A DNA stretch of 64,000 nt from Treponema sp. Lineage in GTDB: Bacteria; Spirochaetota; Spirochaetia; Treponematales; Breznakiellaceae. The stretch lies in the NCBI GenBank assembly GCA_031265435.1, contig JAISCR010000033.1:1-64000 (forward strand), given 5' to 3'. A program made the position numbers and the translations under genes. Positions within the stretch are counted from its first letter, which is position 1, and every line of letters begins with the position of its first letter. Shown one piece after another: positions 17,690 through 47,190 of the stretch. The notes below the pieces were generated by a model. That model ran no database searches. It had not been told where the DNA came from and was given only the letters and a program-made list of their open reading frames with translations.

Positions 17690-17835
17690 AAATAACCACG
17701 AACTACTCGAACGAAAGAGAAAGAGATTACCACAAAAAGTCGAAGAAGTCGAAGAAGTTTTTTAAGAGGAAATCGTTCTTTTCCCTTTACTTTTTCGACT
17801 GATGCGACCTTGTGGTTAAAAATTCTTTTTTCCGA
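17690..17835. repeat. Family-1 palindromic intergenic repeat, copy B
   Basis: gattaccacaaaaagtcgaagaagtcgaagaag ... tttttcgactgatgcgaccttgtggttaaaaattctttttt, between convergent 3' ends. Confidence 0.75.
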
Positions 17836-36409: not shown

Positions 36410-36484
36410 ATGCACAAGCCGCCTCCGGCGGCGTATATAACCAGCTTCCTTACGCTCGCGGCCGAAAGGCCGCATGCACAAGCC
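36410..36484. repeat. Family-3 repeat (64-bp unit plus partial next unit)
   Basis: atgcacaagccgcctccggcggcg...cttccttacgctcgcggccgaaaggccgc then atgcacaagcc; matches 40265-40390. Confidence 0.8.
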
Positions 36485-36555
36485 TTATGTTGATTCACCT
36501 CAAGATTTTAGTTATAGTGTCTGTCCATAAAGCCGGTTTTTCAGAGGGGTAGACT

Positions 36556-39969: not shown

Positions 39970-40266
39970 TCAATCTTTCTGCGCTTCTCTTAGAATTCTC
40001 TCAAAAGCCGAATTTGATTTTTTCAATTCACGTGAACCTCTGGTGATCTTGCAGAGGGAAATTCCCAGATCCTTTGCGATTTTCCGCTGGGGGATCTTCT
40101 GTTTCAGGGATTTGACGAGGGCCCAGCGGGCGGCAATATCGGCGATTTCCGCGGGGGTCAGGAGACAACGGAGAAAGGATTCAATAAGTTCCGAATCGTT
40201 CAGCCTCGACAGAGTCCGGGAGAGTTCGTCAATGTTTTCTACCACCCGCGGGTCATCAGTTTCCAT
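39970..40266 (-). CDS. TrpR/YerC-family DNA-binding protein
   Basis: LRCLLTPAEIADIAARWALVKSLKQKIPQRKIAKDLGISLCKITRGSREL. Confidence 0.88.
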   Translation of the reverse strand: METDDPRVVENIDELSRTLSRLNDSELIESFLRCLLTPAEIADIAARWALVKSLKQKIPQRKIAKDLGISLCKITRGSRELKKSNSAFERILREAQKD

Positions 40267-40390
40267 GCACAAGCCGCCTCCTGGCGGCGCCGTACCATAA
40301 TTTCCTTATGCTCGTGGCCCGAAGGGACCCATGCACAAGCCGCCTCCTGGCGGTGTCTGTCGTACTATCACTTTCCTTAGTGTTCGTACA
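40265..40390. repeat. Family-3 tandem repeat (66-bp unit, about 2 copies)
   Basis: atgcacaagccgcctcctggcgg at 40265 and 40331; first unit overlaps the TrpR-family ATG. Confidence 0.85.
40306..40332 (-). other. Candidate 8-codon upstream ORF (MGPFGPRA*)
   Basis: ATGGGTCCCTTCGGGCCACGAGCATAA preceded by AGGAGGCGGCTTGTGC, a duplicated SD-ATG cassette within the family-3 repeat. Confidence 0.35.
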
Positions 40391-40407
40391 CGATTGTAAC
40401 AGTGGAT

Positions 40408-40527
40408 ACATGAAGAATTTTATAAACCGCGAAGTCAAAGAAGTCGAATAAGTTTTTAAGAGACCCCCCCTCTTTCTCTTTCCTTCTTCGACTTTTTCGA
40501 CCTTGCGGTAAAATATTCTTCTTCCGG
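40408..40527. repeat. Family-1 palindromic intergenic repeat, copy C
   Basis: gaagaattttataaaccgcgaagtcaaagaagtcgaataag...cttcttcgactttttcgaccttgcggtaaaatattcttc. Confidence 0.85.
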
Positions 40528-40567
40528 TCTTGAGTCCACTACCCACAGTTTGAAAGATGTCAAGACA

Positions 40568-41221
40568 CTAGTTCAGGAAGGCTGAAATTTCTCCGGGGCT
40601 GTCGACGATCAGCGCGGCTCCCGCCTCTTTCAGCACGGATACGGGACGGAAGCCCCAACTAACTCCGAGGGGGAAACAGGCGGCGTTCCGCGCGGTTTCC
40701 ATGTCTACCTCGGAATCTCCCACAAAGATCGTGTCCCTAGGAGTCTTGTCAAGCTGCACAAGGATCTCCCAGACCGCCGCGGGATCGGGCTTGCGGGCCA
40801 TGTCCTGTCTTTCACCCTGAACAAGGTCAAAACTCCCCGCCGGAAAGAGTCCGTGTACCACAATCCGGGCTACCGGATCAGGCTTGTTGCTGATGACGGC
40901 GGTTTTAAATTTTTTGCCTCTCAGTTCCGCAATCAGTTCCGGGATGCCGGGGTAGGCCCTGGTGTGAACCAGCGGTTTTTCCGCATAGAAACGGGCCGCG
41001 TCCGCGGCTACGGCGGCGGCAATCTCCTCGGTTACGGTTTCCTCCGGCAGCGCGTCAAAGGCCAGCTTTTTAATTCCGTAGCCCACGATTCCCGGATACA
41101 TCTCCGGCGGCCGCCGCGGAAAACCGTGCAGTTCCAGCGCCCTGTTCATTGACGCTGCAATATCGGCAATGGTATCCGCCAGAGTACCGTCTAAATCAAA
41201 GATCGCACAGCTATATTTCAC
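40568..41221 (-). CDS. Phosphoglycolate-phosphatase-like HAD hydrolase
   Basis: AIFDLDGTLADTIADIAASMNRAL, VISNKPDPVARI, FVGDSEVDMETARNA. Confidence 0.88.
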   Translation of the reverse strand: MKYSCAIFDLDGTLADTIADIAASMNRALELHGFPRRPPEMYPGIVGYGIKKLAFDALPEETVTEEIAAAVAADAARFYAEKPLVHTRAYPGIPELIAELRGKKFKTAVISNKPDPVARIVVHGLFPAGSFDLVQGERQDMARKPDPAAVWEILVQLDKTPRDTIFVGDSEVDMETARNAACFPLGVSWGFRPVSVLKEAGAALIVDSPGEISAFLN

Positions 41222-47058: not shown

Positions 47059-47190
47059 CAGGGCAAGGTCATTTACTTTCATGTTCCGGGAAACTACCAC
47101 GTTTTGGAAGAAATTTTAACCGCTACGTCGAAAAAGTCGAATAAGTTCCGGTACAAGGCCTCGTTTTCTCCTATTTTTTCGATTTTAGCC
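47059..47190. repeat. Family-1 palindromic intergenic repeat, copy D
   Basis: cagggcaaggtcatttactttcatgttccgggaaactaccacgttttggaagaaattttaaccgctacgtcgaaaaagtcgaataag aligns ungapped with copy A from 489. Confidence 0.8.

Follow-up and report, generated by a model that had tools for sequence, protein, structure and literature searches.

The window, by which we mean the whole 64,000-nucleotide stretch of Treponema sp. DNA analysed here, carries on its minus strand a gene for a TrpR-family regulator (trpR) preceded by two units of a dispersed repeat. The features concerned are listed below, with the other copy in the window given last.

39970-40266, minus strand: coding sequence of the TrpR-family regulator (METDDPRVVENI...; PF01371, E=1.3e-19), start conserved in relatives
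40265-40333, plus strand: element unit 1, S-type, reverse to the gene (covariance model, 81.5 bits)
40273-40288, minus strand: Shine-Dalgarno (SD) hairpin of unit 1, stem GCCGCC/GGCGGC and loop AGGA, with stem covariation
40277-40282, minus strand: Shine-Dalgarno AGGAGG, 10 nt before the trpR ATG
40306-40332, minus strand: 8-codon upstream ORF (uORF) MGPFGPRA*, its stop overlapping an internal AAGGA (TAAGGA)
40331-40412, plus strand: element unit 2, degenerate beyond about 40354 (covariance model, 34.3 bits)
36410-36487, plus strand: one full unit and one partial unit, SD-type loop

The minus-strand leader reads GCCGCC-AGGA-GGCGGC-TTGTGC-ATG-GAA at 40288-40261, as given in a preliminary description of this DNA, with the SD (40282-40277) split between the loop (AGGA) and the 6-bp stem (GG), and with the trpR ATG (40266-40264) forming the edge of the repeat, common to the gene and the end of unit 1. 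The same description had noted a second unit, and this is indeed present: from 40331 it carries an identical SD hairpin, with AGGAGG at 40348-40343, and an ATG that opens MGPFGPRA* at 40332-40306. The two units stand in tandem with a period of 66 bp and one ATG in common. Tandem units precede trpR in two sister species too (L103, L107), the sister-species uORF reading MCPFGPRA*, and TrpR relatives in other genera begin at the same residue (M-xxx-DPRVxEN). Neither a sigma-70 promoter nor an intrinsic terminator was found at 40200-40620.

Repeats occupy approximately 300 bp between the phosphatase gene and trpR in the window (40267-40567); in relatives, trpR apparently lies within a few dozen bases after the phosphatase gene. 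Just upstream of the trpR leader, at 40415-40519, another dispersed palindrome (AACCGCGAAGTCGAAGAAGTCGAATAAGTT with its partner) folds into a long hairpin (-40.5 kcal/mol, z=-5.45); this repeat recurs at 549-661, 17730-17824 and 47103-47148. Rfam has no match over the trpR-leader element at E<=1, and its nearby matches are to miRNA models on the 40415-40519 hairpin, which look like spurious hairpin matches. The copy at 36410-36487 is located between two plus-strand genes, upstream of an aconitase-like gene, with no start codon.

A dispersed two-hairpin element

The repeat is an element of approximately 66 bp with two hairpins and the consensus ATGCACAAGCCGCC-loop-GGCGGCGCCGTAC..CTTCCTTACGCTCGTGGCCCGAAGGGACACATG. 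It is not a chance sequence, since the ATGCACAAGCCGCC core occurs 22 times with at most one mismatch in the 3.67-Mb genome, as against once for the reversed control, and since a covariance model built from nine copies finds 35 copies in this genome at a cut-off of E<=0.001. The same search finds 29, 67, 31 and 36 copies in four congeners, so that the five genomes of this genus (g1), all incomplete draft MAGs with ORF-based gene calls, hold 29-67 copies each. Exact matches are present in the Treponema MAGs Gsp477_bin163, Cd354_bin24 and Nm470_bin67, which from their bin names we take to be of termite-gut origin, and at least one match was found in 26 of 90 genomes drawn from the family. Two further genera (G033, L353-L364; G091, L365-L369) have subfamilies that lack an SD, with near-alike copies away from start codons, and these subfamilies are possibly recently active.

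Empty sites in sister species show that the element inserts. Such sites were found for nagZ, DUF58, queA, a helicase and hemW (the last in forward orientation). At nagZ the empty sequence acaataaaccc followed by ATG corresponds to a filled acaataaactc-ATG-TGTCCC..CTTGTGC-ATG, and within an ORF an empty GAGA-TATGCCTGC corresponds to GAGA-TATG-[element]-TATGCCTGC. Both junctions carry ATG, or minimally AT, and a target duplication and an element ending in AT would look alike. Inside ORFs the SD-less subtype forms in-frame inserts of 22 codons (filled in L027 and L297, with empty homologues in L304, L314 and L308). The ends (ATGCACAAG and GGGACACATG) have only CATG in common, so terminal inverted repeats are lacking, and there are two internal hairpins instead.

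Like bacterial MITEs (ERIC, BOX, RUP, Correia/NEMIS), the element is short, non-autonomous, dispersed in many copies, hairpin-forming and potentially able to alter the expression of neighbours, with empty sites in relatives, but it differs from them in having no long terminal inverted repeats. The known effects of MITEs are on promoters, RNA stability, sRNAs or peptide fusions; a review of MITEs makes no mention of Shine-Dalgarno, ribosome or start codon, and the expressed ORFs encoded by BOX are without good SDs (PMC3049150). The in-frame inserts in long ORFs, with an extra peptide that is tolerated and with empty homologues, resemble Rickettsia palindromic elements, which reviews describe as small mobile palindromes joined in frame to protein-coding genes (PMC10969869, PMC2229807). 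Those elements are described as 105-150 bp in size (PMC2229807), which sets them apart from the 66-bp Treponema element, and so does the Treponema subtype that lies in reverse at start codons with an SD in its loop and inserts at ATG. Hairpins near both ends and tandem arrays are reminiscent of REP/REPIN and of minimal elements of IS200/IS605 type. In contrast to those systems, a Y1 transposase was found in neither G001 nor G004, both incomplete genomes, and two others have only single remnants interrupted by an internal TGA (G000:C202:29851-30186, L023; G002:C72, L323), with just a fragment in G003. A Y1 transposase was rejected as mobiliser because it is not associated with the element across the five element-rich, incomplete genomes. 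No autonomous partner element was found in our searches, and we infer that mobility would be conferred in trans. The dispersed TAACTGA repeats of Beggiatoaceae likewise stand immediately before start codons (PMC4679880). They are, however, heptamers with little SD character, beside which SDs are rare, and they have not been shown to be mobile insertions (PMC4679880).

Start codons, loop type and the Shine-Dalgarno sequence

Placement was analysed for 102 flanked copies in g1, sampled from the top-scoring ones. The ATG at the left end, read on the reverse strand, is in frame with a gene in 44 of these, as against 4.2% of random CATs at the same loci. When each distinct locus is counted once, 21 of 22 have the neighbouring gene in frame 0 (P=1.4e-9). 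The preliminary description had made its case conditional on copies being enriched at start codons, and the enrichment is very strong. By peptide clustering, with nagZ counted twice, the 44 start copies represent 23 distinct genes, which include essential ones; secY, gyrA, dnaB, coaD, queA, surE, ispE, alanine racemase and trpR were recognised by sequence. It had also considered that true translation starts might lie farther downstream. This is not so, as SurE and CoaD align with solved structures from residue 1-2, and the SecY and TrpR starts agree with relatives. In 11 further copies, including those at mraZ, gatC and hemW, the gene ATG is at the right end; some of these carry GGAGGGACAC-ATG and others form in-frame N-terminal extensions.

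The loop sequence differs with this context. Of the 44 reverse start copies, 38 have an SD loop, giving AGGAGG, AAGGAG or a near match at a distance of 9-11 nt from the ATG, compared to 6 of 58 copies elsewhere, five of them within tandem arrays. A spacing of 10 nt is among the longer of the usual distances between SD and ATG. With copies regrouped by locus so that they were not counted as independent, SD loops are found at 18 of 20 start loci and 3 of 33 others (P=3.3e-9), counts that are low because automatic grouping merged some tandem loci. This association could in part reflect a founder effect of a subfamily. Four of the six start copies without an SD loop belong to one orthologous gene (the MEEYM group), in which another in-frame ATG, preceded by GGAGG, lies four codons farther on. 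Donation of a ribosome-binding site (RBS) has counting against it, besides the rather long spacing, macA (L126), where the element is at the start without an SD, and the 36410-36487 copy, the sole stand-alone SD loop away from a start codon. For the genome of the window, a search with the 16S 3' end pattern gave imperfect matches only, the 16S gene and its anti-SD not having been recovered intact. Copies without an SD have GAA, GGAA or similar loops and more often a unit length that is a multiple of three, and they lie mostly forward in open frames, adding peptides like HAQAAEGGAVQPTSLRSRPEGTH or MHKPPKAAPYNQLPYARGPKGHM.

A second genus (g64), which played no part in forming the hypothesis, gives the same picture: of 17 SD-loop copies, 16 have a boundary ATG from which the longest frame starts, as against 0 of 20 SD-less copies in three other genera. 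Frame length is the safer measure in g64 because the codon-score classification had been trained on the window. The proposal that a dispersed repeat donates the RBS thus extends beyond the window, to 23 genes in g1 with replication in g64, and is strongly supported by these comparisons.

The sites that received the element appear to have had no comparable signal. All 11 empty sites lack an SD, with duplex energies of -4.0 kcal/mol or weaker. At the native starts of nagZ, the helicase and gyrA (L264, L273, L134) a -10-like hexamer lies 6-8 nt ahead of the ATG, the distance being 6-7 nt for nagZ and the helicase, which suggests that such transcripts in g1 may be leaderless.

The stem of the SD hairpin is real as judged by its covariation: the second genus and related copies contain 16 double-changed cells, compared to a mean of 4.6 in shuffled alignments, with none of 500 shuffles as high. 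Pairing is 95% in that set and 86.7% in g1. In silico, the SD core (AGGA or AAGGA) is predicted to be unpaired in most copies, with only the last 1-2 G paired, and the sequestration of the SD in a stem that characterises an RNA thermometer is thus not predicted. Several copies have eroded. The dnaB and tim44 derivatives have lost the hairpin and now have the internal AAGGA near the ATG, ispE in G003 has lost the 5' arm and kept GAGG, and an eroded gyrA copy keeps its SD.

Competing explanations and significance

We favour the explanation, to which we assign a probability of roughly 0.8, that this is a mobile element inserting at ATG and that the loop SD of its S-type serves as the RBS of the gene. 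The non-autonomous two-hairpin element of approximately 66 bp inserts at ATG and is then flanked on either side by the target AT(G). Upon reverse insertion in a start codon the gene keeps an ATG and acquires the terminal hairpin of the element directly upstream, where the loop (AGGA or AAGG) and the first G or Gs of the stem form a strong SD approximately 10 nt before the ATG. The gene would then probably be translated from this repeat-borne, loop-exposed SD. Their role as the RBS of the gene would be the reason why S-type copies persist at start codons, and after fixation the hairpin could erode while selection presumably retained the SD. The sister subtype, whose 3-nt loop lacks an SD, survives mainly forward and in frame, inside ORFs or at N-termini.

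An alternative is pure survivorship, in which a selfish ATG-inserting element is found at starts only because the coding sequence stays intact there, with the SD loop incidental. The recreation of ATG at both ends by insertion and the largely in-frame position of non-start insertions in ORFs are consistent with this, but it does not explain the split in loop type, why reverse copies lacking an SD are almost absent from starts, or the retention of the SD in eroded copies, and we consider it unlikely. A vertically inherited leader, a conserved cis-element rather than a mobile one, would account for the secY, trpR, mraZ and gatC sites common to three to five species. It is contradicted by the clean empty sites in sister species, by the occurrence of both orientations, by insertions within ORFs and by tandem arrays, and is hardly tenable.

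The preliminary description went further and suggested a possible structurally gated switch, dependent on temperature, ribosome load or helicase; the dispersed copies would then form a translational regulon. Compensatory changes that keep the stem at start-codon copies, the pairing of one or two G at the end of the SD, and the tandem SD hairpins with a uORF before trpR in three species would be in line with such gating. However, this part of the proposal, though conceivable, is unsupported, because SD-less copies inside ORFs have the identical stem, the SD core is predicted to be unpaired and deletion derivatives dispense with the hairpin while keeping the SD. In addition, the genes served are functionally unrelated, and presence of the element differs between sister species. 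We therefore regard gating as doubtful, and the most plausible account of the stem, common as it is to SD-less copies, is that it belongs to the mobile element.

The leader ORF is likewise donated by the repeat, as had been proposed, but it appears to be incidental, being present in 31 of 44 start copies and in 26 of 52 copies elsewhere; it arises from the element's own sequence once the far ATG is present. The trpR uORF may be translated, since three species conserve it together with an upstream SD hairpin of its own. It is improbable that translation is coupled through it, such that a native start drives the 8-codon uORF and ribosomes arriving at its stop, TAAGGA, go on to reinitiate at the hairpin SD. 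The frequency of the uORF at starts and the 9-codon secY uORF, with a TAA or TGA stop in five species, would agree with coupling, as opposed to the frequent uORFs away from starts, the loss of the uORF in several genes and the distance of approximately 40 nt from its stop to the next ATG. Conservation of the uORF was rejected as proof of coupling because the difference between start copies and others is too small. The uORF thus seems mostly inherent to the element and selected weakly at best.

Mobile repeats have a known role as carriers of promoters, terminators and in-frame peptides. The repeat described here appears to supply the RBS itself, precisely at the start codon, in genes such as secY, gyrA, dnaB and coaD. 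No prior description of an RBS-donating repeat was found in a search of open-access literature. Sister species, with their empty, filled and eroded sites, offer natural before-and-after pairs for the evolution of translation initiation regions, and these pairs bear on how selfish DNA becomes indispensable. Whether the mobile element is specialised for docking at start codons, with one subtype's loop-exposed SD rewiring SD-less genes and the sister subtype built for in-frame read-through, is in our view evenly balanced. If true, SD-less genes, several apparently leaderless and some essential, would have been switched to SD-led initiation, and selfish DNA would be a genome-wide source of translation initiation regions.
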